Assembly: GCA_004153385.1 (NCBI GenBank)
Contig: SDAL01000001.1
Span: 2,003,492 to 2,067,491 of the forward strand
Source: Paracoccaceae bacterium
GTDB taxonomy: Bacteria; Pseudomonadota; Alphaproteobacteria; Rhodobacterales; Rhodobacteraceae
Direction of reading: 5' to 3'
DNA length: 64,000 nucleotides
In this document: one piece after another, positions 25,045-61,775 of the stretch
Position numbering within the stretch: position 1 is the first letter of the stretch
Layout of the letters: the number at the start of each line of letters is the position of its first letter
Position numbers and translations under genes: made by a program
The notes under the pieces: generated by a model
The model's input: only the letters and a program-made list of their open reading frames with translations
Databases searched by the model: none
What the model was told of the DNA's origin: nothing

Positions 25045-25050
25045 ATCGGC

Positions 25051-25458
25051 TTACGCTTTCTGCAGCGTGTCGGCCGGCGCATAAGAACCGTCCTCACGGT
25101 GGACTTCCGTACCTGTGACAGGCGGATTGAAGCAGCAAGCCATAACCAGATCTGCGCCGTCATCTGCTATCAGGCGGTGGCGGTCATGCAGATTGAGCGC
25201 ATACATCACACCGGGCTGGATCTCATGGGTTTTATTGTCATTGTCCAACTCGATGATCCGGCCCTTGCCAGACATGCAATAGACGCTTTCGAAATGGTGC
25301 TTGTAATGGAACTCATGCTCCGAGCCGGCCTCGAGCGTCGTGATATGGAACGAGAAGTTCATATTATCATCGGCAAGCAGCATCCTCACGGACGTCCAAC
25401 GCTCGTTGGCCACGGCTTTGTCAGTATTCTTCAGCTCGTTGAAATCGCGAACAATCAT
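25051..25458 (-). CDS. ectC: L-ectoine synthase
   Basis: A 135-residue cupin that closes the ring of N-gamma-acetyl-diaminobutyrate to ectoine. The start MIVRDFNELKNTDKAVANERWTS is typical, as are the cupin segments HEFHYKHHFESVYCMSGKG and YALNLHDRHRLIA that hold the metal site. It lies 96 bases after ectB, a longer gap than elsewhere in the operon, and just before ask. No ectD (hydroxylase) gene is found nearby, so ectoine rather than hydroxyectoine is the expected product. Confidence 0.95.
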   Translation of the reverse strand: MIVRDFNELKNTDKAVANERWTSVRMLLADDNMNFSFHITTLEAGSEHEFHYKHHFESVYCMSGKGRIIELDNDNKTHEIQPGVMYALNLHDRHRLIADDGADLVMACCFNPPVTGTEVHREDGSYAPADTLQKA

Positions 25459-25554
25459 AATGTAATCCTGTTGTTTTCAGTTAGAGTGTTTGGTCTCCGG
25501 CAGGCGCGCGTCCAGAGATATCCTCGCCGCACGCCGCCGGAACACGTCTTGAAA

Positions 25555-26826: not shown

Positions 26827-26882
26827 GAGAGTACCTCTCTGGGGGTAGCTTTATAAGGGAATGAAGGGGGGCCGCGCCCGGA

Positions 26883-27410
26883 TCAGGCTGCGGCCTTCGC
26901 CTCTTCTTCGAACGTGATTGTCACCATGTGTTCGGTCGCGGCATGACCATCGAAGTGGTCGTCCTTGGTGAAATGCGCCTCGGATGTGAGGTCACCACCG
27001 ACCGAGCGGGCGAATGAGCGGAACAGAGCCCAGGATGCCTCGTTGGATTTCGTAATCGTGGTTTTGATCTGCGTGCATTCGTCGGCCTCACTGCGCGAAA
27101 TCAGATGCTTGAGCATACGTTTGCCAAGACCAAGACCACGCGCATCGGGCGATACCGCCACTTGCCACACGAAGAATGCATCGGGATCGGACGGGGTGAT
27201 ATAGCCTGAAACCCAACCGATGGGGGCGCCATCACGCTCCACCATGACACAGGTATCGCGGAAGTGATCGCACTGCAGCAAGTTGCAATACATGGAATTC
27301 TCATCCAGCGGCTTGCAGGTTTTGACGAGTTCCCAAATCGCTGAACCGTCTTCGGCATTCGGCTTGCGGAAGGTTAGCTCTGGTTTTTTCATCATCTTGA
27401 CTGTCGGCAC
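26883..27410 (-). CDS. ectA: Diaminobutyrate acetyltransferase
   Basis: A 175-residue GNAT enzyme that acetylates diaminobutyrate at the gamma-amino group. Acetyl-CoA motif A is seen as VSPDARGLGLGKRMLKHLI (about residues 87-105), and FFVWQVAV precedes it. The start chosen is a GTG at 27410 with GAGGG about ten bases upstream; the in-frame ATG pair five codons later has no ribosome binding site. It is the first gene of ectA-ectB-ectC-ask, divergent from ectR. Confidence 0.95.
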   Translation of the reverse strand: MPTVKMMKKPELTFRKPNAEDGSAIWELVKTCKPLDENSMYCNLLQCDHFRDTCVMVERDGAPIGWVSGYITPSDPDAFFVWQVAVSPDARGLGLGKRMLKHLISRSEADECTQIKTTITKSNEASWALFRSFARSVGGDLTSEAHFTKDDHFDGHAATEHMVTITFEEEAKAAA

Positions 27411-27440
27411 GATTCTGTTCCCTCAGTTGCTTCGAGAAAC

Positions 27441-27469
27441 TAAATAGTCCGGCTCTGGAAATATTTCAA
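27441..27469 (-). promoter_or_regulatory. Candidate sigma-70 promoter of ectA
   Basis: On the minus strand, TTGAAA and TATTTA are separated by 17 bases and lie about 30 bases before the ectA start. The surrounding 200 bases are strikingly A+T-rich for this genome. Transcription would start close to 27434. Confidence 0.5.
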
Positions 27470-27517
27470 CCTATCAAAGTAAATTTCTGCCTAAAAACCG
27501 AGTTTTTCCAGTTATAG

Positions 27518-27546
27518 TTGACAAAAATGCATATCAACCCTAAGTA
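27518..27546 (+). promoter_or_regulatory. Promoter of ectR with overlapping inverted repeat
   Basis: A consensus -35 TTGACA (27518-27523), a 17-base spacer and -10 TAAGTA (27541-27546) point towards ectR. The -35 is half of an imperfect inverted repeat TTGACA-N8-TATCAA (27518-27537), a size typical of MarR-family operators, so EctR may repress its own gene here and influence the divergent ectA promoter. Confidence 0.6.
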
Positions 27547-27645
27547 TCTTTGCTCAAATATCCTATAAACAACCAAAGGAACTCTGGATTGCGCCCTGTT
27601 TCAGCCTCTGCGATATTAAGCCAATCGAAGTTTTTAAGTGGAGAC

Positions 27646-28137
27646 ATGAACGGCATGAGCGAGAGCCGTACCGATATGAGCCTGATTGCCCTACGCCGCA
27701 TTCTTCGCGCGACCGAAATTTTCGGCCGCGATCTGGCCAAAGCTGCCGGATTGACCCCGGTCCAGTTCCGGGTCTTGCAAGTTGTTGCCGAAACGGACTG
27801 GTCCACGGCAAAAGCGATTTCCACACGCATGGGCGTCAGTCAGGCCACCGTCACCTCGCTTGTCGACAAGTTGGTGGACAAAGGCATGGTGAAACGCCAG
27901 CGGTCCGAAATCGACCGCCGTCAGACAGACATCGTCCTGACCCCTGCAGGGTCCTATGCGCTTGAAGAAGCCCCCGATGCACTGCAGCAGCGGTTTGTGA
28001 AGAAGTTCGAATCGCTCGAAGACTGGGAACAGGCGCAGTTGATCGCATCGCTGGAGCGCGTGGCCGGCATGCTTGATGCGCATGATCTGGATGTAGCCCC
28101 CGTGCTGCACGTCGGAGAATTGACGACCCGCCAGTAA
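27646..28137 (+). CDS. ectR: MarR-family regulator of ectoine genes
   Basis: A 163-residue winged-helix MarR protein. The recognition helix is in AISTRMGVSQATVTSLVDKLVDKG and the wing in RRQTDIVLTPAG. It is divergent from ectA, the position of EctR in methylotrophs and of related regulators in other Proteobacteria, where it represses ectABC until osmotic stress (known). The start at 27646 follows GTGGAG; the upstream TTG frame would place the gene across its own promoter. A terminator follows at 28186-28220, separating it from doeA. Confidence 0.85.
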   Translation: MNGMSESRTDMSLIALRRILRATEIFGRDLAKAAGLTPVQFRVLQVVAETDWSTAKAISTRMGVSQATVTSLVDKLVDKGMVKRQRSEIDRRQTDIVLTPAGSYALEEAPDALQQRFVKKFESLEDWEQAQLIASLERVAGMLDAHDLDVAPVLHVGELTTRQ

Positions 28138-28185
28138 TTTGACAGCAGTTTTTGCCCTTATAATGGGCTTTCTTGGCATAACATC

Positions 28186-28220
28186 CCCCGCGTCAGGCAT
28201 CTGGCGCGGGGATTTTGTTT
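28186..28220 (+). terminator. Rho-independent terminator of ectR
   Basis: CCCCGCGTCA pairs with TGGCGCGGGG (one G-T wobble) around a six-base loop, then ATTTTGTTT. It lies 48 bases past ectR and 77 bases before doeA, so doeA needs its own promoter. Confidence 0.85.
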
Positions 28221-28297
28221 GACGCAACCTGCACTTCGGGGTTCCCATGGGCTGCGCGCCTGTTCGCGCGCGCCCCACACGAAGAAACGGAGCCGCA

Positions 28298-29482
28298 ATG
28301 CCTATCGCCCATGCCCCCTTCACCTACGAGGAATACCAGCGACGCATCCGGCTTGTGCGTCGCGCCATGTCAGAGCGTCATATTGATGTGCTGTTCATCA
28401 CCAATCCCTCGAACCAGTTCTGGCTGACAGGCTATGACGGTTGGTCGTTCTACACCCATCAAGGGGTGATACTGGCAATGGACGGCGACCCGATCTGGTG
28501 GGGGCGCGGCATGGATGCAAATGGCGCCAAACGCACCGTGTGGATGGAAGATACGCAGATCCGCTGGTATGCCGACCGGATGGTGCAATCGGAAACGGTC
28601 CATCCAATGGAAGACCTCGCCTCGCATCTGCGGATCTTGGGCATGTCCCATAAACGGATCGGCGTCGAGATGGAGACCTATTTCTACACCGCCCGCGCCC
28701 ATGCTGTTTTGCTCGAAGGGCTGCCCGATGCACAGATTGTCGATGCAAGCGTTCTGGTCAACTGGCAGCGCCTGATCAAATCCGACGAGGAACTGCAGTT
28801 CATGCGCCGTGCCGCGCGGATATCCGAGCTGGTGATCGAACGCGCGATAGAGCTGATCGAACCCGGCTATCACAAACACGATCTGGTGGGCGAGCTCTAC
28901 AAAACGGCCGTGCAGGGCGAGGATGACAGTTGGGGCGATTATCCCGCCATTGTGCCGATGCTGCCGTCAGGGGCCGATGCCTCTGCGCCGCATCTGACGT
29001 GGAACGGGGAGGCATTCCGCAAAGACGAAATGACCTTCGTCGAACAATCGGGCTGTTATCGCCGCTATCATGCGCCGCTGTGCCGCTCGATCTATCTTGG
29101 CAAGCCGCCCCAGCACATGCTGGATGCTTCTGCTGCGCTGACAGAGGGGCTGAATGCGGGGATCGAGGTCGCCCGCCCCGGCAATCGTGCCTGCGACATC
29201 GCGCGGGCGCTGGATACGGAATTGCTGAAAGTGGGCATCGAACGTCCGGCCCGCTGCGGCTATGCGGTCGGCTGCTCCTACCCGCCGGACTGGGGCGAAC
29301 ACACCGTATCGCTTCGCGCAATGGATGAGACCATTCTTGAACCCGGCATGACATTCCACTTCATGCCCGGCCTGTGGATGGATGACTGGGGGATGGAGAC
29401 GACCGAGACGATCCTGATCCGCGAGGATGGCGCCGCCGAACCGCTGAGCAAAGTCTCGCGCCAGTTATTTGTGAAAGACTGA
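28298..29482 (+). CDS. doeA: Ectoine hydrolase
   Basis: A 394-residue protein of the M24 (creatinase/aminopeptidase) fold: an N-terminal creatinase-like domain to about residue 150 and a C-terminal pita-bread domain. The segment ITNPSNQFWLTGYDGWSFY, the MDANGAKRTVWM block and the ending FMPGLWMDDWGMETTETILI match the DoeA/EutD group that opens the ectoine ring to N-acetyl-diaminobutyrate. The start at 28298 has CGGAG seven bases upstream. It shares one base with the next gene (TGATG). Lying beside ectABC-ask, it shows that the cell can both make and break ectoine. General Xaa-Pro peptidases are the alternative, less likely in this context. Confidence 0.87.
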   Translation: MPIAHAPFTYEEYQRRIRLVRRAMSERHIDVLFITNPSNQFWLTGYDGWSFYTHQGVILAMDGDPIWWGRGMDANGAKRTVWMEDTQIRWYADRMVQSETVHPMEDLASHLRILGMSHKRIGVEMETYFYTARAHAVLLEGLPDAQIVDASVLVNWQRLIKSDEELQFMRRAARISELVIERAIELIEPGYHKHDLVGELYKTAVQGEDDSWGDYPAIVPMLPSGADASAPHLTWNGEAFRKDEMTFVEQSGCYRRYHAPLCRSIYLGKPPQHMLDASAALTEGLNAGIEVARPGNRACDIARALDTELLKVGIERPARCGYAVGCSYPPDWGEHTVSLRAMDETILEPGMTFHFMPGLWMDDWGMETTETILIREDGAAEPLSKVSRQLFVKD

Positions 29483-30648
29483 TGTCTGATCTTGCGCATG
29501 CCAAAGCGGTGCTGGGAGATCTGATCGCGTTTGAAAGCGTCTCGTCAAACAGCAACCTTGATATCATCGACTATATCGCCCGCCATCTGAAGGCGGCAGG
29601 CGCGCGGGTGGACATCTTGCGCGACCCAACCGGCAAGAAGGCCAATATCTGGGCGAGTATCGGGCCGGAAGGTGACGGCGGTCTGGTGCTGTCGGGGCAT
29701 TCCGATGTGGTGCCCGTGACCGATCAGGACTGGTCGCATGACCCGTTTCATATGCACGAGGCAGATGGCAGGCTATACGGTCGGGGCAGTTGCGACATGA
29801 AAGGCTTTATCGCCTGCTGCCTGACCAAGGCAGAGGACCTGGCCCGCATTGCGACCACCCGCCCGATCCATTTCGCCTTCACGCACGACGAGGAGGTCGG
29901 CTGTCTGGGCGCACGCGCGCTGGTCGAGACACTGCACGAGCGCGGCATACGCCCCGCGCTGTGTCTGATCGGCGAGCCTACGCAAATGCAGGTGATCGAG
30001 GGCAATAAGGGATGTTGCGAATATACCGTCACCTTCCACGGTCAGGAAGGGCATTCCTCCGCACCCGAGCGCGGGGTGAATGCCGTCGAATATGCCGCGC
30101 GCTATATCGCGCGCCTGCTGGAACTGCGCGAAGACCTGAAGGCCCGCGCGCCCGAAGACGGTCGTTTTGATCCGCCATGGACCACACTCAACGTTGGACA
30201 GCTGCACGGCGGGGTCGCCCATAACGTGATTGCCAATCATGCTGTGCTGGATTGGGAATTCCGCCCGATCAACGCGCAGGACATGGCATATGTGAAAACG
30301 CAGGTGGCCGAACATGTGGCCCGCCTTTTGCCGCAGATGCAGGCTGTGATGCCCGACGCCTCAATCAGCACCCAGACCATTGGCGAGGTCGCGGGGCTGG
30401 AGCCGATGCCCGAAAATACAGCCCGCGATCTGATGTTCCAGCTGACCGGCCAGAACACCGCCACATGTGTGCCGTTCTCAACCGAAGCGGGCCTTTTCCA
30501 GCAGTTGGGTACCGATGTTGTCATCTGCGGACCGGGCTCGATCGAGCAGGCCCACAAGCCCGATGAGTTCGTCAGTCTCGAACAGATGGAACAATGTTTA
30601 GAAATGTTCGATAGGCTGATCGAACGGGGGCTGGAGTGCGCTACATGA
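29482..30648 (+). CDS. M20-family deacetylase (ArgE-like), putative N-acetyl-diaminobutyrate deacetylase
   Basis: A 388-residue zinc amidohydrolase. Metal ligands and active site are visible: H73 and D75 (SGHSDVVP), D105 (GRGSCDMKGF), E137/E138 (HDEEVG) and a late histidine in EQAHKPDEF. The dimerisation domain begins at GHSSAPE. It resembles acetylornithine deacetylase ArgE. It overlaps doeA by one base, so its substrate should be the DoeA product N-acetyl-2,4-diaminobutyrate. The classical DoeB for that step is from the unrelated AstE/AspA fold; this would be an alternative enzyme (inference). True ArgE activity cannot be excluded. Confidence 0.8.
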   Translation: MSDLAHAKAVLGDLIAFESVSSNSNLDIIDYIARHLKAAGARVDILRDPTGKKANIWASIGPEGDGGLVLSGHSDVVPVTDQDWSHDPFHMHEADGRLYGRGSCDMKGFIACCLTKAEDLARIATTRPIHFAFTHDEEVGCLGARALVETLHERGIRPALCLIGEPTQMQVIEGNKGCCEYTVTFHGQEGHSSAPERGVNAVEYAARYIARLLELREDLKARAPEDGRFDPPWTTLNVGQLHGGVAHNVIANHAVLDWEFRPINAQDMAYVKTQVAEHVARLLPQMQAVMPDASISTQTIGEVAGLEPMPENTARDLMFQLTGQNTATCVPFSTEAGLFQQLGTDVVICGPGSIEQAHKPDEFVSLEQMEQCLEMFDRLIERGLECAT

Positions 30649-51207: not shown

Positions 51208-51468
51208 TCATGACGCGTGCCGCCGACACTGAACGGGCGGATTATGTTGAAAAACGCGGCCTGAGAACGCATTTTGGGCTGTCCTCAGGTTCGGGGGGGG
51301 GCGCCGTTTGGCTCGGGCAATCGCCCGTCGCTCCGACTTGCCGGTCACCGGGATGAAGGGGATGCCGCTGCGCGGCTCAACCAGCCATCTGAAGTTCTCG
51401 GCATAGGCAGTGTCAGCCGCACGCCAATCCGGTCTGATCCCGAACCGTTTCTCGGTTCTGTCAAGCAT
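51208..51468 (-). pseudogene. IS1182-like transposase fragment (N-terminal/central part)
   Basis: A frame of 86 codons contains MLDRTEKRFGIRPDWRAADT, then AYAENFRWLVEPRSGI and FIPVTGKSERR, which matches the catalytic-domain segment (..DRLAADTAYGSAE..W..) of IS1182-family transposases from memory of the family. The rest of the protein is missing and the sequence around it (51027-51720) shows no other gene. It is an insertion-sequence relic. Confidence 0.65.
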
Positions 51469-51720
51469 CGTGTGCGACGTCAGGGCTTCAGTCTCCGGCT
51501 GCGATTGACCGGACCTTGTTGGCGTCAGTAAAGATCAGACTGGCCTCCACGGCAAAGCCCTCGCCGGTTCAACAGCACGGGCGGGGGGGACCTTAGCTGC
51601 ATCTGTGAAGGGTTCTGTGCCAGAATTTCAAAGCTGCCATTCAAGCCCATGCTGCGCGCCATAGGCAGCAATGCACAGATTGCGTCCTTTGCAAAGTCCA
51701 GCCCATATGGCCTCACTGGA

Positions 51721-51753
51721 TGGCAATCTCGGCCCGAAGCTGCCGGTCGGGAT
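51721..51753. repeat. Copy 1 of a 33-base dispersed repeat
   Basis: Positions 51721-51753 and 53342-53374 are the same apart from one base; both carry the core GGCCCGAAGCTGCCGGTCGG. They flank the DUF1348/TetR pair in direct orientation. The core contains imperfect GGC/GCC symmetry. Their role is unknown; they could be fragments of an insertion element. Confidence 0.75.
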
Positions 51754-51932: not shown

Positions 51933-52014
51933 GTATGTTTGATCTGGTTCGGTATCGGCATGCTCGTCGAAGCTTCCGCTGCGCCAGCACGCGCGCATCA
52001 AAAAAGGAAATGGA

Positions 52015-52479
52015 ATGCCCCGTCCACCGCTGCCCCCCTTCACCTACGAAACTGCTGTCGAGAAGGTTCGCTTGGCCGAAGATGGCTGGAACACGCGCGA
52101 TGCTGCGAAGGTTGCACGCGCATACACGCCCCATACGCGCTGGCGTAATCGGGTCGAATTTGCGACCAGCCGGGAAGAGGCTCAGGCCTTCTTGCAGCGC
52201 AAATGGAACAAGGAACACCAATACCGGCTCATCAAAGAATTGTGGGCCTTCTTGGGCAATCGGATTGCCGTACGCTATGCGTACGAGTATCACGATGACA
52301 ATGGAGTATGGTTTCGCGCTTACGGAAATGAAAACTGGCTTTTCGCCGAAGATGGTCTGATGTCAAACCGCTATGCCAGCATCAACGAGAAACCGATTGC
52401 CGAGGAGGAGCGCTTGTTTCATTGGCCTCTTGGGCGGCGTCCGGACGCGCATGCGTCGCTGAGCGATCTGGGTCTTTGA
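52015..52479 (+). CDS. NTF2-like protein of the DUF1348 family
   Basis: A 154-residue SnoaL/NTF2-fold protein with the DUF1348 pattern: [21 protein letters not shown] near the start, [17 protein letters not shown], and the [10 protein letters not shown] strand. The fold is a cone that binds small molecules; no enzyme activity is established for this family. It lies 5 bases before a TetR gene and under a palindromic operator, so its level is probably set by a ligand of that repressor. Confidence 0.85.
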
Positions 52480-52484
52480 GAACC

Positions 52485-53051
52485 ATGCGTGTTCTCACCA
52501 ATCGCGCCAGCGCAGTGCCCGCACTGGCGGAGGCTTTTCGCGAGCATGGCTTCGAGGGCGCCAGCTTGGCGGTGCTGTCGAAGGCGACCGGTCTTGGCAA
52601 AGGCAGCCTCTACAACTTCTTTCCCGGGGGGAAGGAAGAGATGATGGAGGCAGTCCTTGCCGACATAGACCACTGGTTCTGCGAAAAGATCTTTTTGCCA
52701 TTGGAGCGCGCAAATGATCCGGCTACGGCAATCTCGTCCATGTTCGAATACGTCACAGCCTATTTTCGTTCGGGCAGACGAGTATGCCTGCTTGGCTGTT
52801 TGACTCTGAACACCGCGGGTGTGGAGTTCGCCGTTATCGTGAAGGAATACTTCGCACGGTGGATTTCGGCGCTGTCCCATTGTCTTGAGGTCGGGAAGGT
52901 TTCCCGTGATTTTACAAGGCAACTCGCGGAAGAAACGGTGTCCGGCATACAGGGTGCGATCGTCTTGGCTCGTGCCTTGGATGATGACGCGACCTTCAAC
53001 CGGGTTCTTCGCAGGCAGCATTCGGCCCTGATCGACGCGATCACGGCCTAG
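52485..53051 (+). CDS. TetR/AcrR-family transcriptional regulator
   Basis: A 188-residue TetR protein: N-terminal helix-turn-helix at about residues 8-55 (AFREHGFEGASLAVLSKATGLGKGSLYNFF) and a C-terminal ligand-binding domain with a C-x-x-x-C pair (RRVCLLGCLTL, about 105-115). The chosen start at 52485 is 5 bases past the DUF1348 stop; the longer frame overlaps that gene. It is the best candidate to bind the palindrome at 51897-51932 and so repress its own operon. Confidence 0.87.
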   Translation: MRVLTNRASAVPALAEAFREHGFEGASLAVLSKATGLGKGSLYNFFPGGKEEMMEAVLADIDHWFCEKIFLPLERANDPATAISSMFEYVTAYFRSGRRVCLLGCLTLNTAGVEFAVIVKEYFARWISALSHCLEVGKVSRDFTRQLAEETVSGIQGAIVLARALDDDATFNRVLRRQHSALIDAITA

Positions 53052-53680
53052 GGGGCTGCCGCTAGCCACCGCATAAGTGACATTTTTTCCGAGTTCGCTG
53101 CGGCTGTCGCGCCGTGGTGCCATAAGTCGGCATTCCGCCGATCTGCATGAGTAGACTTCGCGTCAGAGCGGCGAGTGACGGGTCTGCTTTGGGCTGACAA
53201 CGGTCACCCCGAAGCGGCGCCGAAGTCGGATGGGTGACAGCCCAAAACGAAGATCGGTTGCTGCACCGCCGCAAGTCCGGTTTGGGCTCGGACGACCGCC
53301 TGCCCTTGGTGCAGCATTGCGCAGGTCCGGAAGGGCTGTGCTGGCAATCCCGGCCCGAAGCTGCCGGTCGGGATGCCGCCTCGGCAGCAACGCGGACTTC
53401 AGCTGTAGGTCTTTATGCGTTGCCCCCTGAAAATTGAACCGTTCACAGCTTGCGTTTTCAGCTCGTCTTTCTTGGCTGGAAGGGGACCTGAAACGCGTGA
53501 AAGCATCAACGTTCACTGCGGCGCAAAAGCGGTTTATCCCGAAAGATGGCACGCAGCGCATTCCCCAGCAAACTGTCCGTCAATTCGCAGGCAAAGTCGG
53601 GGTTCAGCCCAGCCGAATGCTGGTGATCGGCTAGGCCGTGGGGCTGCGGTCGGAGGGGCGTCTGTGCCAAGAAGTTCACC
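53052..53680. other. Intergenic region with repeat fragments and a possible transposon relic
   Basis: This 629-base stretch carries the second copy of the 33-base repeat (53342-53374) and a second copy of an 18-base segment (53264-53281). A rightward frame at 53434-53634 (LSWLEGDLKRVKAS, then QQTVRQFAGKVGVQPSRM) has a vague resemblance to the N-terminal DUF4158 region of Tn3 transposases but stops after 66 codons. Nothing here looks like an intact gene. Confidence 0.4.
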
Positions 53681-54679
53681 TCACTCTCGCCCATCGCCCG
53701 TTTTGTAGGCGCGGTTCATGGCGTTCTTCACGCCATCTAGGTGTTCGCCATGCCGGAGCCTGCTTTCCAGACGTTGGGCAGACCGCTCGGACGCCTTTGC
53801 TTCCGAGGAGAGCCACTCCCGGAACTTGCGAATTTTTGCACCATTGGCGCGCTCGGGAGGATAGACGATCCAGTAGCCGCGTCCATCTTGAGCGAAGACA
53901 GATGAGAGGCGAACAAGGCGACCTTCGGCGATTTCGCGGTGAAAAACCGCCGGGGTCAGGAGCGCGACCCCCTGCCCCCTGATCGCGGCGGTCGCCTCGA
54001 GATTCTGCGCATCAAGCGTGATATCCGGCCCGTTGGGGACCTCCCGGTCTGGATGTCCGGCCGCGATAAGCCATAGCCGCCACCACGGGTCACGGCTTGC
54101 GATGAGCGGCGCTGAAAGAAGTGTGTCGATATCCACGATCGGGCCGTATTTGTGCAGGAATTCCGGACTGCACATGGGGGTGAAGGCCATCGGGAAAATC
54201 AGCTCTGCGCTGAGCCCCGGCCACTGGCCGACCCCAGCCCAAATCCCGACATCACATCCCGACCGATCCAGATTCTGATCCGTATCGGCGAGGATTCGAA
54301 CCGGAGGATTATTGGCCATCGCCTGAAACTTCGAAAGACGCTCTGTTAGCCATGCAGCCGCGAAACTGGGCAGCACGGAAAGCCGCAGGCTGTGTTCATG
54401 TTCCATGCGGATCTCGCGAACGGATTGGCGTATCCCTTCGAACCCGGTGGCAACGCTCCCCGCGAGCTTTCTGCCGGCAGGTGTCAGATCACAGGCCTTA
54501 CGACCCCTGATCACGAGCGTCACCCCCAACTGCGCCTCCAAGGCCTTCACCTGTTGGCTCACCGCGGCTTGGCTGATCCCGATCTCCTCTCCGGCGAGAG
54601 TGAAATTCAGGTGGCGTGCAAGCACTTCGAACGTCCGCAGATAATGGAGTTGCGGGAGTCTCTCCTGCGGATGCTGCAT
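53681..54679 (-). CDS. LysR-family regulator (GcvA-like), divergent from the ATP-grasp operon
   Basis: A 332-residue LTTR with the N-terminal helix-turn-helix at about 12-70 (LNFTLAGEEIGISQAAVSQQVKALEAQLG) and a GcvA-type effector domain (about 95-300; TPMCSPEFL, DPWWRLWL, GQGVALL). The last 35 residues or so, after FREWLSSEAKAS, are longer than usual and may have been added when the 3' end was joined to other DNA. It faces the ATP-grasp gene across 136 bases that hold a palindromic T-N11-A box, so it almost surely controls that operon and itself. Confidence 0.87.
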   Translation of the reverse strand: MQHPQERLPQLHYLRTFEVLARHLNFTLAGEEIGISQAAVSQQVKALEAQLGVTLVIRGRKACDLTPAGRKLAGSVATGFEGIRQSVREIRMEHEHSLRLSVLPSFAAAWLTERLSKFQAMANNPPVRILADTDQNLDRSGCDVGIWAGVGQWPGLSAELIFPMAFTPMCSPEFLHKYGPIVDIDTLLSAPLIASRDPWWRLWLIAAGHPDREVPNGPDITLDAQNLEATAAIRGQGVALLTPAVFHREIAEGRLVRLSSVFAQDGRGYWIVYPPERANGAKIRKFREWLSSEAKASERSAQRLESRLRHGEHLDGVKNAMNRAYKTGDGRE

Positions 54680-54719
54680 ACTCTAAACTCGCTTTGAAAC
54701 GCCGCTTCCAGATTACTTT

Positions 54720-54740
54720 TGCATAAGTCAGACTTATGCA
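54720..54740. promoter_or_regulatory. LysR-type operator (palindromic T-N11-A box)
   Basis: TGCATAAGT and ACTTATGCA form a perfect inverted repeat with a three-base centre; inside it TAAGTCAGACTTA is an exact T-N11-A LysR motif. It lies 41 bases from the LysR start and about 75 bases before the ATP-grasp gene. A further perfect palindrome, TTGCAATTGCAA (54791-54802), sits just before the ATP-grasp ribosome binding site. Confidence 0.75.
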
Positions 54741-54815
54741 GACCCGCAAGTAATTTTTTGGTCTTCTCGCTCCGCTTTGCGCAGTCTCCATTGCAATTGC
54801 AAACGGAGATTGATG

Positions 54816-56117
54816 ATGACTGCGACATTTCAGGTTCCCTCCTTCAGATCGGAAGATACGGCTGCTGTCACCGAAGCTGTCATTCTTCTGTGTCCAACCA
54901 AGATTCTGCTTGAGACGCCTGAAGAGGACTGGTTGGCAGCGTTGGGCACGGCCCCTTACATTTTCACGGACGCACAGTCCCGCGATCTGGTCTTGCGGCA
55001 TTTTCCACGCATCGGGCACCGCATCCGCTTCTACCCGTCCTTTAACGACAACGCGACGGTCGAGCTTGACGTGTATGAACTTGCGCGGGAACTTCACACC
55101 GACCAAGTGATCGCGCTTGCGGAGATCGACCTTCTACGCGCGGCGCGCATTCGTGATCATCTGAACCGCGGGGAGACCTGCTACGAGGCACGGACGATCT
55201 TTTACCGCGACAAATTCCTGATGAAGCAACGGCTCGCCGAATACGGGATACCCGTTCGACCGATGGCACCATTTGCCTCGGCGCTTGAACTGAAAAGTTT
55301 CATCGATAGGGTCGGCTATCCGGTCATCGTCAAACCGCGTGACGGCCGCGGGTCGCTTGGGATCACGACCCTGAGGTCAGACGCGGATCTGCGAACCTAT
55401 GTATCAAAGGCGGAAAGCTCGACATTTTACGCCATGATGGTCGAGCAGTATGTCGATGCGCCGATGATCCATGTGAATGGTCTTTATCGCGACGCCCTTC
55501 CCGCTTTTATCACACCGGTCATGGCGAACGTCGGTTGTCTTGAGTTCATCGAAGGGAAAAGCTTGGCCGTCGCCATGCTGGATCTGGACAGCGACCTCTA
55601 CCGCAATGTGATCGCCTTGGCTCGCAAGATCATCGAGCAGGCAATGCCGAGCATTCCGGAGATGCTGTTCTACCTCGAGCTTTTCGTTGACACGGACGGC
55701 ACTCTTGTCGTCTGCGAAATCGCTTGCCGCCTTGGAGGCAATGGCGCCTGCCAAGAGGCCATCGAGGCATTTGGCTTCAACCCGAGGCTGGAGTACATCA
55801 AGGCCGTCCGTGGCCTTGATGGCATACATGGTCATGACGGGCTCCATCGCCCGAAACGGCATGTTGGCTATATCGCCATCCCCCCCACGCCCGGTCGACT
55901 TGTTTCCATGCCAGACCCATCCGGCGTTAACGGCCTTCTACATTACATCGAAACAGGCATCCCCGGCCAAACATACTCGGCCATGAAAATGAGCAATGGC
56001 GAAATTGTTTGTGCCGTGATCGGCGGGCGCGACAATGCCGAGGTCGCAGAAAGGATGCGCGCGTTCGACGAGTGGTTCCGACGTGAAGTGGTCTTTGCCC
56101 GTGGAGATGCGCAATGA
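54816..56117 (+). CDS. ATP-grasp ligase of unknown substrate
   Basis: A 433-residue protein. The first 120 residues are a poorly conserved preATP-grasp domain. The ATP-grasp fold follows: RDKFLMKQRL (K133), IVKPRDGRGSLGI (K173, then the glycine-rich loop), the hinge VEQYVDA (about 209-215), and the metal-binding strand CEIACRLGGNG (E301, R305). ATP-grasp enzymes join a carboxylate to an amine or thiol through an acyl-phosphate. Start 54816 has GGAG seven bases upstream; ATG 54813 is equally in frame. The stop overlaps the next gene by ATGA. Within the operon it would make an amide or dipeptide-like compound (inference). D-Ala ligase and carbamoyl-phosphate synthase are excluded by overall sequence, not by test. 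Confidence 0.85.
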   Translation: MTATFQVPSFRSEDTAAVTEAVILLCPTKILLETPEEDWLAALGTAPYIFTDAQSRDLVLRHFPRIGHRIRFYPSFNDNATVELDVYELARELHTDQVIALAEIDLLRAARIRDHLNRGETCYEARTIFYRDKFLMKQRLAEYGIPVRPMAPFASALELKSFIDRVGYPVIVKPRDGRGSLGITTLRSDADLRTYVSKAESSTFYAMMVEQYVDAPMIHVNGLYRDALPAFITPVMANVGCLEFIEGKSLAVAMLDLDSDLYRNVIALARKIIEQAMPSIPEMLFYLELFVDTDGTLVVCEIACRLGGNGACQEAIEAFGFNPRLEYIKAVRGLDGIHGHDGLHRPKRHVGYIAIPPTPGRLVSMPDPSGVNGLLHYIETGIPGQTYSAMKMSNGEIVCAVIGGRDNAEVAERMRAFDEWFRREVVFARGDAQ

Positions 56118-57514
56118 AACTGCATATAGCAATCGTCGGTTTTGGCTACGCCGGAGCGGTCTTGGCGGATCGTCTCCTTCGTCAGCACCCGGCAGGCGTG
56201 TCCATCAATATCTTTGACAAATGCAGGAGCATGGGAGAGGGCCGTGCCTATCAAGGCGATCTGCACACGAACCTGCTGAACCGGCCTGCGGAGTTGATGT
56301 ACCTTCGGGAGCCTCAGGATTTTCTGCATGCGGCAGGAGTACCTTTGGGTTCGTTCGCGCCCCGTCCCGTCTTCGGTGATTTTCTCCGAGCAGAAATGAA
56401 GAAGATGCTCGCCGAGCATCGAACCGTCGCCAGATATACACCCTCGGAAGTGATATCGATCCGACCGGATGGCCTTTCCCATATCCTCAAGACAGCCGAC
56501 GGCAATGAATGCAAAGCCGATATTGTCGTTCTCGCCATTGGCAGCCAGGCGCAGTCTCTTCCTTACGTCATCACCAATCGGGACCGCTACACGTCCGATC
56601 CTTATCCTGTCAGCCGGCTGCTGGCCCTTGACGCGCGCCAGATCGGGATCGTGGGCACCCGACACTCGGCCGTCGACGTGGCGCTGGGGCTCCTCGAACA
56701 TCGCGATGATATCGAGGTGGTGATCACCTCAAGACGGTCGCGAATTCCTGTTGCCAGTGGGGCATATACCCGCGTCGAGCCGCGCGTTCTCAGCGAGGAC
56801 TATCTCAAAGGCGCGCTCGGATCCTGCGAAGGTGGTTTGCGAGGTATCGTGAGGCTAATAGATAGGGAGTTGCGCGCACATGATATCGACTGCACGCTGA
56901 TTGAGTTTCTCAGGACACGTCTGGACACCACCAGTATGGCGGATCGGGGGCGGCTTTTCGGGGTGATCAGCTCATTGAACGCGCAGTTGGCCGTACTGTG
57001 GTCCAGATTGACACCGCTCGAACGAGAGCGGTTCGATATGCTCTGGCGCCACTATTGGGCAGACGCCCGCGTCCCTATTCCTGCATGTAGAGTAGAGCGT
57101 TTGACCGAGATGCAACGACAGGGACGTCTGTCGATATTTCCGGGTCTGAAAGACGTCAGGGAAACGGTTTCAGGTCTGGAGCTCGTCAGTGAAAGCGCCT
57201 CGGTCAACGTCGACCACTTAATCAATGCGGCAGGACCAGGCTCGCAGCATCACTCGACACTCGTGGACGACCTGATGCGGTATTACGGGGGGGGGCTCCA
57301 CCCACAAGGCGGCCTTTGCTGCGATTTCGAGACATGCCTGCTTTCAGGGCAACAGGCTCGATCCAGCATATTCGTCACGGGCCAGTTGAGCAGCGGAACG
57401 TATTTCGGGGTGAGCAGTATTGACGCCATCCAAGACCAGGTCCGAAGGATCAGCTCGGAAATTCAAGGACGTTTCAAGCTGCTCGCGGCTTCTGGCGCGC
57501 CCGAGGCTGCCTGA
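56114..57514 (+). CDS. YdhS-like FAD/NAD(P)-binding protein
   Basis: A 466-residue flavoprotein-like protein of the NAD_binding_9 / COG4529 type. An FAD Rossmann motif GFGYAG is at residues 9-14; VVLAIGS (about 138-144) is the usual second FAD strand; a second nucleotide region reads VGTRHSAVDVAL (180-191), where relatives as I recall them have GTG at the place of GTR. The C-terminal part includes INAAGPGS (about 370-377) and a GVSSIDAIQDQVRRI tail. Family members are uncharacterised oxidoreductases related to N-hydroxylating monooxygenases. It overlaps the ATP-grasp gene by 4 bases and the AbrB-like gene by 1, so the three proteins are made together. Confidence 0.82.
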   Translation: MKLHIAIVGFGYAGAVLADRLLRQHPAGVSINIFDKCRSMGEGRAYQGDLHTNLLNRPAELMYLREPQDFLHAAGVPLGSFAPRPVFGDFLRAEMKKMLAEHRTVARYTPSEVISIRPDGLSHILKTADGNECKADIVVLAIGSQAQSLPYVITNRDRYTSDPYPVSRLLALDARQIGIVGTRHSAVDVALGLLEHRDDIEVVITSRRSRIPVASGAYTRVEPRVLSEDYLKGALGSCEGGLRGIVRLIDRELRAHDIDCTLIEFLRTRLDTTSMADRGRLFGVISSLNAQLAVLWSRLTPLERERFDMLWRHYWADARVPIPACRVERLTEMQRQGRLSIFPGLKDVRETVSGLELVSESASVNVDHLINAAGPGSQHHSTLVDDLMRYYGGGLHPQGGLCCDFETCLLSGQQARSSIFVTGQLSSGTYFGVSSIDAIQDQVRRISSEIQGRFKLLAASGAPEAA

Positions 57515-58581
57515 TGCCGCGCCCGACCCGAAAACTGGGGGCAATGCTCATCCCCCTTGCGATTTGCACGGCTGCTGGAAGCGCCCTGCAACTCGCCGGG
57601 GTCGCGAACGGGATGCTCGTTGGCGCCTTCGTTGCCGCCCTTTTTCTCAGTCGGACATATCCGGCGATGGAAGAGGTTCCGGGGGGGGTGATCGTGATGC
57701 AGATCATCGTCGGGCTTTCTGTCGGTGAAAGCCTGCGAAATCATCTGGGAATGGAAAGCGGGAGCCTTGCGCTGCTTGTCGTCGGCACGCTGATTGCGTT
57801 GGTAATCCAGTGGCTTGCGTCATTCAGTTTCCTGAGGATTTTCCGATGGAGACGCGCCGACGCGGCACTTGCGGCCTATCCTGGCGCCATGGCCAGCGTC
57901 TTGGAACTCACGGACAGGAATGACGTCAACCCATCCGTTATCCTTGTTCATGTCGTGAGGGTGTTTGTCATCGCAACAGGAGCATCGCTCATGATGAGAG
58001 AGCAGAGCCAAGTCGTCTGGACAGCCCCCGGAACTGTAGAGGGCTTGTTGATCATCGCTTTGAATGTGATTGCCTGCCTGACCTTTGGCAAGCTCCTCGC
58101 GATGGCGGCGATGCCAGCTCCTTTTCTGCTAGCCGCAGTCCTGACAACACTCGCAGCAGGTCACCTGTCTCCGCAGTATTCGTTCTCGCCCCCACCGATC
58201 GCGCTCAACGTCGCCGAAGCATTGCTCGCGGTTGCCGTTATGATCCGGTTGAAGAAGGTGAATCTCGAACAGGTGAGAGGTCATATGGTGTCGATCTTCT
58301 TGGTCATCTGCGTGATGGCTGCAGTTTCCATCCTGACGGCATTGTGCTTGACCAAATTCAGAGGCGGAGGTTTTGAAGAGAATGTGCTTGGGATCGTTCC
58401 GGGCGGGATCGAAAGCGTTGCGATCATTGCCGTGGGCGCTGGCTTGAACGTCGCCGCGGTCATGAAAATGCACCTCATTCGCCTGATAGCCGTGCAGGTC
58501 ATTCCGACGCTCATCATACAGGGCGGTCGCGCCTGTCAGTGGTTTCGAGGCCGCGCACAGCCGAAGGAAAATCCAGACTGA
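57514..58581 (+). CDS. AbrB-type (COG3180) inner-membrane protein, putative transporter
   Basis: A 355-residue polytopic protein with about ten hydrophobic helices in two repeats (about residues 8-170 and 180-345), each with a glycine-rich VGLSVGE- or GIVPGGIE-like re-entrant element, as in the AbrB_dup family. Databases often call these 'AbrB transcriptional regulator' or 'ammonia monooxygenase'; neither is supported, as there is no DNA-binding domain and no metal-enzyme motif. A carrier role is inferred from the fold. It is last in the operon, starting within the stop codon of the YdhS-like gene, and would move the operon's product or substrate. Confidence 0.8.
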   Translation: MPRPTRKLGAMLIPLAICTAAGSALQLAGVANGMLVGAFVAALFLSRTYPAMEEVPGGVIVMQIIVGLSVGESLRNHLGMESGSLALLVVGTLIALVIQWLASFSFLRIFRWRRADAALAAYPGAMASVLELTDRNDVNPSVILVHVVRVFVIATGASLMMREQSQVVWTAPGTVEGLLIIALNVIACLTFGKLLAMAAMPAPFLLAAVLTTLAAGHLSPQYSFSPPPIALNVAEALLAVAVMIRLKKVNLEQVRGHMVSIFLVICVMAAVSILTALCLTKFRGGGFEENVLGIVPGGIESVAIIAVGAGLNVAAVMKMHLIRLIAVQVIPTLIIQGGRACQWFRGRAQPKENPD

Positions 58582-58863
58582 TCCGCCATGAGGAATGTGC
58601 TACGCGAGTGCCGCGAACGGCAGCTATCGAATATCGATGATCTTTTGTGCTGTTCATTCAAGAGCGGATTTTGAGGTCGCCGCGAAGGTCTGGTTTGAGC
58701 CTAAACTTCTCGCCTTGGAAGAGGTCGACTTCGCAAGTCCAACAACTGACGCGACGCAGTAGCGACGTTCGTTTGACCCAAGCCGGGACCAATGCTGCGC
58801 TACCGGCGAAAGGCGGTGTCTGTTCCGGAGGCTTCGAACGCGAGCGGCTCCGACTGGAGGCCT

Positions 58864-60384
58864 TCAGTGATGGCCGACGCTGACTGAGCGCGTCTGACGC
58901 AGCAGGACATAGACGAGGATGCTCAGCAACGCCATCAGCACCGCCGCGGCTGTCAGCAGAATCGAATGGGTCGCGGAAAACGCGGCCTTGCCGGCGGCGA
59001 TCATCGCGGCCCCATCATCCGCATCCAGCTGCTGGGCAGTGATGTAGACATCGCCCATCGAGAGTGCGGCCCGTTCGGTCAGACTGTCGCGCAGGCCGTC
59101 GGGCAGAACGAGATTGTGACCGAAAACCACCGACATGAAGACGCCGAACAGGGTGATGCCCAAACCGCTGCCCAGCTCGTAGCCGGTCGCCTCGAGCGCG
59201 CCTGCCGCGCCGGCTTCGCGCGTATCGGCAGCGCCCATGATCGCAATGGAAGACGCGGTAAGCCCAATGCTCAGCGCAAGACCGAGGGCCGCCAGCAGCA
59301 TGGGCACGATCAGGCCGGGATCGTGGAAGTCCGCGATGGCGAGCCCCGCGAGCGCCCCCGCCGAGATGGCCAGAGACAGACAGGCCACCGGCCTCAGACC
59401 GAAGCGGGCGGAGAGCCAGCCCGCGACCGGCCCGCCTATGGCCGCCGCCGCCATAATCGGGACCATGAAGAGCCCCGCCTGAAACGGGGTCTTGTCCAGC
59501 ACGTATTGTAGTTCCTGCGCCAGCGTCAGCTCGACCCCGGCCAGCGATCCACTGGCCACGATGGCCATGACGATCCCCGCGATGATGGCCGGGCGCGCAA
59601 AAAGCGACAGGTCCAGCATCGGTGCGGCGCTGCGCAGCTGCATGCGGATGAAGAGCCACAGAAGGGCGACGCCGGTGGCCATGACCGACAGAACGAGCGC
59701 CGGCGGCTGCCGCCCCGCGAACCCGGCCTTGATCGCGTAGACGGTCGCGATCATGCCGAGGATCAGCAGCATCGCCTGCCCGATGGGCCAGTGTCCGTGG
59801 GTGATTTTTTCCCGCCGCGACAGCAGGCACCAGCAGGCTGGCAGGACCACCGCCATTACGGGAACATTGATCAGAAAGACCGACCCCCACCAGAAGTGTC
59901 CCAAAAGCGCGCCGCCGATCAGCGGGCCCACCGCGGCGCCGGCCGCGCCGACCGTTCCCCAAAGACCGAGCGCGACGCCGCGCTCGGTCTCGTCCTCGAA
60001 CGTGCGGCGGATGATGCCAAGCACGCACGGCATGATCATCGCCCCGCCCACCGCCAGCAGCATCCGGGTCGCAATCAGCAGGGGCGCGTTGGGCGCGAAG
60101 GCCGCCATCGCCGAGGCGAGGCCAAAGATCGTGAGCCCGGCCAGAAGGATGCGCCGGTTGCCAACCCGGTCGGCCAAGGTGCCCATCGGCACCAGAAGTC
60201 CAGCCATCAGCAAAGGATAGATGTCGATGATCCATAGCACCTGGGTGTTCGACGCGCCGAGCGCTTGGGTCAGCGTCGGCACCGCCACGTGCAATATGGT
60301 CATATCCAGCACCACCGGTAGAAATGCCAGCATCACGGCGACCAGTACAAGCCAGCGCTTCGGATCAGATTGATGGACAGACAT
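58864..60384 (-). CDS. MFS multidrug exporter (DHA2/SmvA-QacA type)
   Basis: A 506-residue transporter with fourteen hydrophobic helices. Family motifs: LDMTILHVAVPTL (motif D1, about 27-39), GTLADRVGNRRIL (motif A, about 68-80), and GPLIGGALLGHFWWGSVFLINVP (motif C and beyond, about 153-175). This is the SmvA/QacA group that exports quaternary ammonium compounds, biguanides and dyes by proton antiport. A TetR gene is divergent, as with SmvA-SmvR. The 282-base gap at 58582-58863 on its 3' side shows no gene. Confidence 0.9.
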   Translation of the reverse strand: MSVHQSDPKRWLVLVAVMLAFLPVVLDMTILHVAVPTLTQALGASNTQVLWIIDIYPLLMAGLLVPMGTLADRVGNRRILLAGLTIFGLASAMAAFAPNAPLLIATRMLLAVGGAMIMPCVLGIIRRTFEDETERGVALGLWGTVGAAGAAVGPLIGGALLGHFWWGSVFLINVPVMAVVLPACWCLLSRREKITHGHWPIGQAMLLILGMIATVYAIKAGFAGRQPPALVLSVMATGVALLWLFIRMQLRSAAPMLDLSLFARPAIIAGIVMAIVASGSLAGVELTLAQELQYVLDKTPFQAGLFMVPIMAAAAIGGPVAGWLSARFGLRPVACLSLAISAGALAGLAIADFHDPGLIVPMLLAALGLALSIGLTASSIAIMGAADTREAGAAGALEATGYELGSGLGITLFGVFMSVVFGHNLVLPDGLRDSLTERAALSMGDVYITAQQLDADDGAAMIAAGKAAFSATHSILLTAAAVLMALLSILVYVLLRQTRSVSVGHH

Positions 60385-60392
60385 GCTTTACC

Positions 60393-60441
60393 TTGGCTTC
60401 AGGAACAGCTGTCGATATAAATACGTTCGTATGGATTTCAA
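60393..60441. promoter_or_regulatory. Overlapping divergent promoters with a TetR operator
   Basis: Rightward: -35 TTGGCT (60393-60398), 17 bases, -10 TATAAA (60416-60421) for the TetR gene. Leftward: -35 TTGAAA (60441-60436), 16 bases, -10 TATATC (60419-60414) for the exporter. The inverted repeat ATACG-TT-CGTAT (60421-60432) lies in the leftward spacer and just past the rightward -10, so one bound repressor would block both. Confidence 0.65.
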
Positions 60442-60469
60442 TGTCCAAACGCCGGTGTCAGGAGGTCGC

Positions 60470-61006
60470 ATGGGAAGAAAGTCGAGCATTTCACGCGAGG
60501 GTTTGCTGAACGAAGCCGAAGAGATCGTGCGCACAGGTGGTGGAGCGGCGCTGACCATCGGTTCGCTCGCGCAGGCAGCGGGGATTTCCAAGGGTGGGGT
60601 GCAATACTCGTTTGCCACTAAGAACGACCTTGTGCGCGCCCTTGTCGACCGCTGGACGGAGCAGTTCGATGCCATGCTGGGAGCGCACGAGGAGGCCGAC
60701 CCCGTTGCCTTCGTCAGGCGTTACATCGCGGCAACCCGTGCCTCGCAACAAGTGATGAATGCCAAGATGGCGGGCCTGCTTGTCAGCTATCTGGAGAGCC
60801 CGGACAATCGGCGCGAGACCCGTGACTGGTATCGAGGCATCTTCGAACGACTCGGCGGTGGCTCGGATACAGCGCGCGCGGCGCGTGTCGCGTTTCTGGC
60901 TGTAGAAGGGCTTTTTCTCATGCATATGAACGGTATCGACGAAGACTGCGAGTGGACGGCCTTCCTAGATGACGTCGAATCTGTTCTGGCACGGCTGACC
61001 GATTGA
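60470..61006 (+). CDS. TetR-family repressor of the SmvA-like exporter
   Basis: A 178-residue TetR protein: helix-turn-helix at about 8-50 (GAALTIGSLAQAAGISKGGVQYSF) and a C-terminal ligand pocket domain. The ribosome binding site AGGAGG is perfect for the ATG at 60470. It is divergent from the MFS exporter over 85 bases containing the operator, so it should release the exporter gene on binding a cationic compound, like SmvR (inference from context). Confidence 0.88.
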   Translation: MGRKSSISREGLLNEAEEIVRTGGGAALTIGSLAQAAGISKGGVQYSFATKNDLVRALVDRWTEQFDAMLGAHEEADPVAFVRRYIAATRASQQVMNAKMAGLLVSYLESPDNRRETRDWYRGIFERLGGGSDTARAARVAFLAVEGLFLMHMNGIDEDCEWTAFLDDVESVLARLTD

Positions 61007-61058
61007 ACGCCACCCAGAATACTGACCTGATCTATTTGGCTGACACGTTCAGGCGGAT

Positions 61059-61640
61059 CTAGCGGAGGCCCCCCGGAGGCGCCTGTGGCAGCCACTGTGC
61101 AGGTGCGGCGAACGGCAGAAAGGTCCTGAATGCTGTTGAAAACTCGTCGGAAATTTCTGCTCGGAAGGACGGCGCGGTGGCCGTCGGGGAATGGCCTGCA
61201 TGTTTGGTGCGCGCATGTTTGGCTGTCTCAGCCAGCCACCGTTGTCGGGGCCATCTCGGGGTTGATTTTTGCCAATTTTCGAAGGTTCCGGGCAATTGCC
61301 GCCTGCGTAAATGCGTCTTTCACGCCCAATGGCCCTCTCAGCCGCAGACGGGTGAGGCGACGAACGCGCTTGAGGCATCTCGACCTTCTTGCGCGCCTCG
61401 TAGCCGTCTCGTTGAAGGGGGTCGCTGTGCAAGTTCGGGCGACATCCCGCACGATCTCAAACGGACCGCGTTGAAGGCTGCGCGTTTCGCTGTTCGGGCA
61501 GCACTGCGCCTTCAACGGGCAAGACTGGCGATCAGCTGTCACAGCGCGATGCCGGAAGCGAAGGGCGCGCGGCGCAGGGTGATCGACCGCATCGTTGTCA
61601 CACCGACAGGCCCCGACGGCAGGCTTGCGACCGGGTCGGC
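61059..61640 (-). pseudogene. IS1182-like transposase fragment (C-terminal part)
   Basis: Read leftwards, in at least two frames: CPLKAQCCPN (the cysteine-rich CxxC block of the DDE_Tnp_1_6 family), RGPFEIVRDVARTCTATP, ARKKVEM, then RLTRLRLRGPLGVKDAFTQA and AIARNLRKLAKI. These match the last third of IS1182-like transposases, with the LFAHLKRIL-type segment disrupted by frameshifts. It is a relic with no intact copy nearby. Together with the 51.2-kb fragment it brackets the 52-61 kb genes. Confidence 0.7.
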
Positions 61641-61775
61641 AAGGATCATCAAAACGCCGACATCCGCGCACTCGGATGACCCATCAAAGACCCTTGGCAC
61701 CCGGTGAAGGCTCAGAAGCGATATGTGAGCTTCACCAAATCATGGATGGCTTGTCCGCGGGATGCGAGCGCCATG

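Follow-up and report, generated by a model that had tools for sequence, protein, structure and literature searches.

Organisation of the locus

We analysed three overlapping genes in a 64,000-nucleotide stretch of a Paracoccaceae bacterium genome (contig SDAL01000001.1; "the window" hereafter denotes this whole stretch), which encode an ATP-grasp ligase, a flavoprotein and an AbrB-type membrane protein and which we refer to together as the trio. The genes and the features immediately upstream of them are as follows, in window positions:

54813 to 56117, + strand: ATP-grasp ligase, L-amino-acid-ligase-like, 434 amino acids; nearest solved relative RizA (4wd3)
56114 to 57514, + strand: PF13454 flavoprotein, candidate amine N-oxygenase, 466 amino acids; nearest solved relative by profile the FzmM-type aspartate N-hydroxylase (8cp2)
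57514 to 58581, + strand: AbrB-type (PF05145/TIGR03082) duplicated membrane protein, candidate CPA/AT-type transporter, 355 amino acids
53681 to 54679, − strand: LysR-type regulator, divergent, GcvA-like (below the GcvA cut-off); position not fixed among relatives
54721 to 54739, divergent intergenic region: 19-bp inverted repeat, candidate LysR site

The gene coupling claimed in the original prediction is present, with the ligase and flavoprotein frames overlapping by 4 bp (56114-56117) and the flavoprotein and AbrB frames by 1 bp (57514), and the LysR gene does diverge from the trio with an inverted repeat in between. The families it had named also agree with Pfam, which reports LysR_substrate and HTH_1 for the regulator, three ATP-grasp models above cut-off for the ligase, NAD_binding_9 (PF13454, 79 bits) for the flavoprotein and AbrB (PF05145) for the membrane protein. 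The ATP-grasp gene likely starts at ATG 54813 or 54816, directly 3′ of a GGAGA, rather than at TTG 54777. We considered and rejected a defence system, no PADLOC match being found for any of the three trio proteins (E 0.001).

Family assignment of the three proteins

Compared with solved proteins, the window ligase finds RizA as its best match by phmmer (E = 6.4e-12), by profile (1.5e-19) and by Foldseek rank. On its ATP-grasp domain and this closest similarity we class it as L-amino-acid-ligase-like, and its family membership backs the putative role in ligation that had been assigned to it. Five positions, K138, K174, E289, E302 and R306, are invariant in all six rows of the ligase alignment, and we take these Lys, acidic and Arg residues to form the nucleotide/Mg site; in a 20-row alignment K138, K174 and E289 are still invariant, and E302 and R306 vary. 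Because LAL_C2 (PF18603) was not found in the window protein (Pfam, E 0.001), we call it a ligase-like enzyme, not a member of the LAL_C2 subfamily; the second ligase of the Leisingera clusters described below does have LAL_C2. No second match to the ligase was found elsewhere in the window genome (E <= 0.001).

For the flavoprotein, the redox step proposed earlier can now be narrowed by its nearest profile to a step like that of an amino-acid N-hydroxylase, and the YdhS equivalog is rejected: the protein scores 24.2 bits against a curated cut-off of 783 for the equivalog model PRK09897, which we presume to stand for YdhS. The FzmM-type structure 8cp2 is the best profile match with two different alignments (9.8e-9 and 1.4e-9), through two colinear stretches that cover both halves of the protein, and the next-best entries are far behind (0.029 and 6.6e-4, respectively). 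Ferredoxin-NADP reductase, NADH oxidase and ornithine hydroxylase are among the weaker profile matches. In a Foldseek comparison of the structure model the N-hydroxylases PvdA, KtzI and SidA rank first; 8cp2 is at rank 49, yet has the highest query TM-score (0.58) among the 50 matches listed. The GxGxxG FAD motif is present as GFGYAG at residues 9-14. Asn62 of FzmM, which lies over the flavin, is critical in class B monooxygenases (PMC10404684; this and the other papers are cited from excerpts of their text), and it aligns with an Asn of the flavoprotein profile, N56 being invariant in 18 of 18 rows. The FzmM pocket residues Asn413, Arg416 and Arg577 fall outside the aligned stretches.

The membrane protein scores 123.2 bits with PF05145, for a cut-off of 29.2, and 121.3 bits with TIGR03082, for a cut-off of 94.7, the latter in two stretches that mark an internal duplication; repeated hydrophobic stretches are seen in the protein, and no solved relative was found by sequence up to E 1. 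Membership of the AbrB family backs the candidate role in transport that had been suggested. The family has been placed among the CPA/AT transporters, close to the glutamate symporters (PMC8396727), and the excerpts of PMC8396727 and PMC8562792 name no substrate for it. The window genome holds one other AbrB gene, which is much nearer the family model (257.9 against 122.9 bits).

Recurrence of the trio in distant bacteria

Comparison of gene neighbourhoods established that the trio is not private to one genome, as it recurs in Pseudomonas and in Phaeobacter/Leisingera. At 1e-60, at least 16 of 398 genomes in the genus of the Pseudomonas seed match the ligase, and 13 of these hold ligase, PF13454 flavoprotein and AbrB in one cluster. 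The bare trio, ordered as in the window, is found in four of the 13 (L008, L048, L049 and L050, the last a contig of 7.5 kb). The other nine have an extended cluster, with an aldolase, an acetaldehyde dehydrogenase and an aminotransferase in addition and the flavoprotein at the far end; with L010, added from the contig scan, there are ten extended Pseudomonas loci in all (L009-L014 and L044-L047). That scan of genome contigs gave seven loci, all from Pseudomonas.

Among plasmids, the best ten matches to the ligase are the same records as those to the flavoprotein, six from Phaeobacter and four from Leisingera, and the two genes adjoin by coordinates in 10 of 10. In each of the five plasmids whose annotation was inspected we found ligase, flavoprotein, AbrB, a second ligase, aldolase, acetaldehyde dehydrogenase and aminotransferase, and the Leisingera aldolase and acetaldehyde dehydrogenase score above their equivalog cut-offs (329.2 against 286 and 317.7 against 282.25). 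The pair of ligase and flavoprotein also occurs with another transporter type, given that a Photobacterium plasmid carries ligase, major facilitator superfamily (MFS) transporter and flavoprotein, and that a Streptomyces anulatus plasmid (L079:4923-8560) has ATP-grasp, methyltransferase and PF13454 flavoprotein genes in a row. The Streptomyces flavoprotein is a full-length homologue of that in the window, with 126 of 478 columns identical.

The module is a rare accessory element. The ligase query at E <= 1e-20 matched 1 of 16 genomes of its own genus and at least 2 of 394 of the family; ligase alignment A1 matched at least 3 of 398 genomes of the phylum at 1e-40, and at 1e-60 the matches were at least 3 of 367 genomes of the class and at least 1 of 350, the seed itself, in the class of the Pseudomonas seed. 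Beyond the genus of the window these multi-genome counts are lower bounds, because in many genomes scoring covered just a part of the first-look candidates (4 of 12 in one instance), and the sampled genome sets overlap. Genes of the individual families are common by comparison, each of six genomes holding two to three AbrB and three to six PF13454 matches at E <= 0.001; it is because the trio recurs in distant taxa that the gene set exceeds chance.

A protein of 276 amino acids (L009:7026-7856) adjoins the ligase in eight of the ten extended Pseudomonas clusters (L009-L014, L044 and L047), as well as in L051 and L052. It has no significant Pfam, NCBIfam or PDB-sequence match (the best are at chance level, E 0.62 and 0.15), and so none that would mark it as a haem-oxygenase-like diiron oxidase (HDO); the PDB set searched may not include MboA. 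Invariant in five of five aligned rows are H181, E182, H186, E190, H193, E226, H229 and H232, a set of His and Glu residues that suggests a metal site.

Phylogeny and selection

The ligase and AbrB trees agree. Each places the window with the four bare Pseudomonas trios (ligase 92/96, just below the tool's star; AbrB 96/92) and the Leisingera/Phaeobacter proteins with the extended Pseudomonas clusters (98/99 and 96/97, respectively). Exact positions are unsure, since the trees are midpoint-rooted and the window sequences sit on long branches. Compared with its relatives, the window ligase has 37-45% identity (30-31% with L006, L051 and L052), the window flavoprotein 25-33% and the window AbrB protein 24-28%. 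In the relatives the trio genes are under purifying selection: the ratio of nonsynonymous to synonymous substitution rates (dN/dS) is 0.08-0.14 in 8 of 15 gene pairs, all of them between relatives, with the window genes outside the set. Of the other pairs, five had no computable synonymous distance and two were dropped, one AbrB frame being broken.

A second AbrB of the trio clade lies elsewhere in the L048 genome (L072/L076). This stray protein, L072, falls inside the trio clade in the tree, and its neighbourhood has a LysR gene and no ligase.

A candidate pathway and competing explanations

The idea of a coupled module, with which the analysis began, is well supported by comparative genomics. 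We tentatively favour reading the trio as the minimal core of a small-molecule pathway independent of nonribosomal peptide synthetases (NRPS), combining amide coupling, N-oxygenation and export; the observed basis is that the proteins fall in these families, that the frames are open in the window, that synteny is conserved, that selection in relatives is purifying and that the ligase and AbrB trees agree. The ATP-grasp enzyme would convert a carboxylate to an acyl phosphate and then couple this to an amino acid's amine; the flavoprotein, depending on NAD(P)H and O2, would oxygenate the amine nitrogen of the substrate or product, to the N-hydroxy, oxime or nitro level; and the AbrB-type protein, with its predicted CPA/AT fold, would carry the resulting amino-acid-like anion over the membrane, most likely outward. 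Since synteny is conserved and the sister clusters are richer, all three proteins likely act on one molecule. Its biological role, which could be that of an antimetabolite, a signal or a metal ligand, is a matter we infer, as are the reactions, the substrates, the order of steps and the direction of transport.

In the larger clusters the acylating aldehyde dehydrogenase, the 4-hydroxy-2-oxovalerate-type aldolase and the aminotransferase, working in the synthetic direction, would provide a gamma-hydroxy-alpha-amino acid (4-hydroxy-2-amino acid) as a dedicated building block, and the bare trio would draw its building block from general metabolism. Nothing closely related to the Leisingera aldolase was found in the window genome (three matches, the best with 29% identity over residues 3-238), so that the bare trio would have to use another building block. 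It is possible, and rather doubtful, that the trio constitutes in full a three-gene, NRPS-free route from ordinary amino acids to an N-oxygenated, amide-linked antimetabolite (an N-hydroxy, oxime or nitro peptide) and includes a dedicated exporter of the AbrB type; marine Rhodobacterales would carry this pathway on plasmids, and a minority of Pseudomonas would have it too.

A number of results weigh against a pathway of this kind. The structure models of the ligase and flavoprotein are of low confidence (mean predicted local distance difference test scores of 57.5 and 60.9), their best TM-scores are only 0.3 and 0.58, and the single stretches that match FzmM are weak when taken alone (E 0.054 and 0.0018 with the first alignment, 0.00065 and 0.049 with the second). 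The NADPH-motif region of the flavoprotein reads GTRHSA, in which the first Gly and the Ser-Ala of what we take to be the usual motif, GxGxSA, are kept and the second Gly is Arg. The residue of the flavoprotein profile aligned with Arg13 of FzmM, which binds Asp (PMC10404684), is not Arg; we therefore reject an aspartate hydroxylase proper, and the substrate is probably not aspartate. As for the transporter, PF05145 has been described as an outlier on a separate branch (PMC8562792).

The neighbourhoods and trees hold further points on the same side. The AbrB gene of L048 (11793-12813) is split over two frames, apparently by a frameshift or a sequencing error, and 3 of the 16 Pseudomonas ligase matches lie outside an intact set: L051 and L052 have LysR, MFS, the 276-amino-acid protein and ligase, with no more than a fragment of AbrB, and L053 represents a different cluster with a distant relative of the ligase. 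The third ligase-positive genome in the phylum and class searches (L054 and L073, respectively) has other gene surroundings. Of three more plasmid neighbourhoods of the flavoprotein that were inspected, two showed no annotated ATP-grasp gene in the part examined, and in Pseudomonas sp. GM80 (L074:5600-11275) the only ATP-grasp protein seen near the PF13454 flavoprotein is of another type (ATPgrasp_Ter, with a PylC-like N domain), about 3.3 kb off on the opposite strand. Finally, the flavoprotein tree unites the window, the bare trios and Leisingera/Phaeobacter in one group (100/100) and sets the extended Pseudomonas clusters apart in another flavoprotein subclade, a placement of Leisingera/Phaeobacter that conflicts with that of their ligase and AbrB proteins. 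Given this discordance, the flavoprotein was probably exchanged in one lineage.

In a competing variant the biosynthetic pathway is the same and the flavoprotein, being no N-oxygenase, acts on the ligated product as an oxidase, reductase or electron donor. Such a variant fits the lack of Arg13 and of the second NADPH-motif Gly, the varied gene contexts of PF13454 members and the presence of the disulfide reductases MerA and RclA among the Foldseek matches. We nevertheless consider it somewhat unlikely, as the aspartate N-hydroxylase leads well ahead of the next entry in both profile searches and the aligned catalytic Asn is invariant.

Improbable, in our judgement, is a catabolic or detoxifying module, in which an amino acid or organic anion would enter through AbrB and be modified by the flavoprotein and ligase, and in the extended clusters the aminotransferase, aldolase and acetaldehyde dehydrogenase would degrade a 4-hydroxy amino acid to pyruvate and acyl-CoA. 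One or two ATP-consuming, amino-acid-ligase-like enzymes with an oxygenase-like flavoprotein would be unusual for catabolism, the bare trio contains no carbon-releasing enzyme, and the closest solved relatives of the ligase are L-amino acid ligases. What speaks for degradation is that aldolase and acetaldehyde dehydrogenase are mainly known from catabolism, in which LysR control from a divergent promoter is also common, and that genes for an FAD_binding_2 flavoprotein and a TctA-type tricarboxylate transporter are found close to the other AbrB gene of the window genome. Chance assembly of accessory genes without common function, in a stretch marked by insertion sequences (IS), is very improbable: the stretch is a mosaic with flanks like plasmids of other genera, and third-position GC is lower in the trio (0.64-0.67) than in two presumed housekeeping genes (0.73), but the same trio stands in another class amid other neighbours, the ligase and AbrB trees agree, selection in relatives is purifying, and the conserved synteny already contradicts it.

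Relation to known systems

Several characterised systems share parts of the logic of the candidate NRPS-independent pathway. RizA, BL00235 and BacD/YwfE, ATP-grasp L-amino acid ligases that belong to dipeptide pathways, resemble the window protein in their ATP-grasp domain and as freestanding ligases in compact clusters; unlike them, the window ligase, a remote relative, has no Pfam LAL_C2 and has a flavoprotein and an AbrB protein as partners. In the nikkomycin (NikA/NikB/NikS) and rhizocticin (RhiG/RhiM) pathways, an aldehyde dehydrogenase, a 4-hydroxy-2-oxovalerate-type aldolase and an aminotransferase yield a gamma-hydroxy amino acid that is coupled by an ATP-grasp enzyme. Corresponding genes are held by the extended sister clusters only, and plasmid proteins annotated as NikS have 30-31% identity to the window ligase. 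The trio itself differs from the nikkomycin type in having no aldolase, to which the window genome as a whole offers only the three distant matches; the dehydrogenase was not searched for genome-wide.

The aspartate N-hydroxylases FzmM, CreE and AlnM (PMC7347517) are like the window flavoprotein in the colinear profile similarity over both halves, the aligned catalytic Asn and the GxGxxG start. They differ in that the window protein is about 135 residues shorter than the 601-residue chain and does not have Arg13, and in that no lyase family appears among the neighbouring open reading frames of the window that were scanned.

Freestanding ATP-grasp ligases allow small bioactive peptides to be made without NRPS machinery, and the mangotoxin mbo cluster (MboA-F) makes an NRPS-free tripeptide with two ATP-grasp ligases and oxidative tailoring (PMC13185094). 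NRPS-free ATP-grasp ligation with oxidative tailoring is what the trio would have in common with it; mbo, unlike the trio of one ligase, flavoprotein and AbrB with no further gene, uses a second ligase, an arginine deiminase and a diiron HDO that works with a redox partner. At least 25 clusters combine an HDO with an ATP-grasp ligase (PMC13185094), and a relative of the larger Pseudomonas clusters could be among them. The combination of ligase, flavoprotein and AbrB was not found among the titles listed for the open-licence literature, which is no proof of its absence, and the excerpts of PMC4010436 and PMC8719888 have nothing on this module.

We infer that the trio belongs to the ATP-grasp-based, NRPS-free type of pathway, its putative chemistry now being narrowed. 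With a single ligase, a putative N-oxygenase and a candidate transporter, the core, which occurs bare or embedded in larger clusters in two proteobacterial classes, is small enough for in vitro reconstitution, and it would offer a handle on AbrB-type membrane proteins. If the proposed pathway is correct, its transporter would be, to our knowledge, the first of the AbrB family with a known substrate, and as far as we know it would be among the smallest complete pathways to N-O natural products.

The LysR regulator and its candidate site

The inverted repeat at 54721-54739 reads GCATAAGT-CAG-ACTTATGC, with a 3-base centre between two arms of 8 bases that match perfectly. When up to three mismatches are allowed, the pattern occurs twice in the window (the other copy, at 53071-53089, has three mismatches), against a mean of 0.10 in shuffled sequences; as the pattern was derived from the sequence itself, this comparison is no test against palindromes in general. 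The regulator scores 236.1 bits with the curated GcvA model, below its cut-off of 288, and is described here as GcvA-like only.

That the LysR gene is a fixed member of the set did not hold up. Among the four other bare trios a nearby LysR gene is found only in L048, about 1.4 kb upstream of the trio with a glutaminase gene in between. Next to one Leisingera cluster (L004) lies a LysR gene whose product has 30% identity to that of the window; this protein may be its relative or may simply belong to a large family. The extended Pseudomonas clusters are flanked by a different LysR type. Since LysR genes flank both kinds of cluster, LysR control may recur in other forms.

The accessory stretch and its surroundings

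Two candidate IS relics lie outside the locus:

51329 to 51479: IS5/IS1182 transposase relic, upstream of the accessory stretch
61228 to 61671, − strand: DDE transposase remnant, weak, downstream of the accessory stretch

The claim that IS relics bracket the stretch stands on the upstream side, where the DNA has 85% identity to an annotated IS5/IS1182 transposase sequence. On the downstream side the relic is weak, as its match to a transposase DDE domain (E 2.2e-4) scores 21.9 bits, under the cut-off of 25.1. Between these points the stretch is a mosaic whose flanks resemble plasmids of other genera; positions 52003-53000 have 76% identity to a Novosphingobium plasmid. Downstream of the trio, an MFS transporter and TetR pair (58686-61010) has 79-80% DNA identity to pairs on Paracoccus and Qingshengfaniella plasmids and is an independent passenger. 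Just upstream of LysR, a 33-bp direct repeat (97% identical; 51721-51753 and 53342-53374) encloses DUF1348 and TetR genes.

Elsewhere in the window lies a region of ectoine genes (23602-30648), in which four score above their cut-offs: aspartate kinase (23602-25044), ectoine synthase (25051-25458), EctB (25555-26826) and EctA (26883-27410). Beyond them, on the other strand, are an ectoine-hydrolase-like gene (28247-29482, under the DoeA cut-off) and an acetylornithine-deacetylase-like gene (29482-30648).

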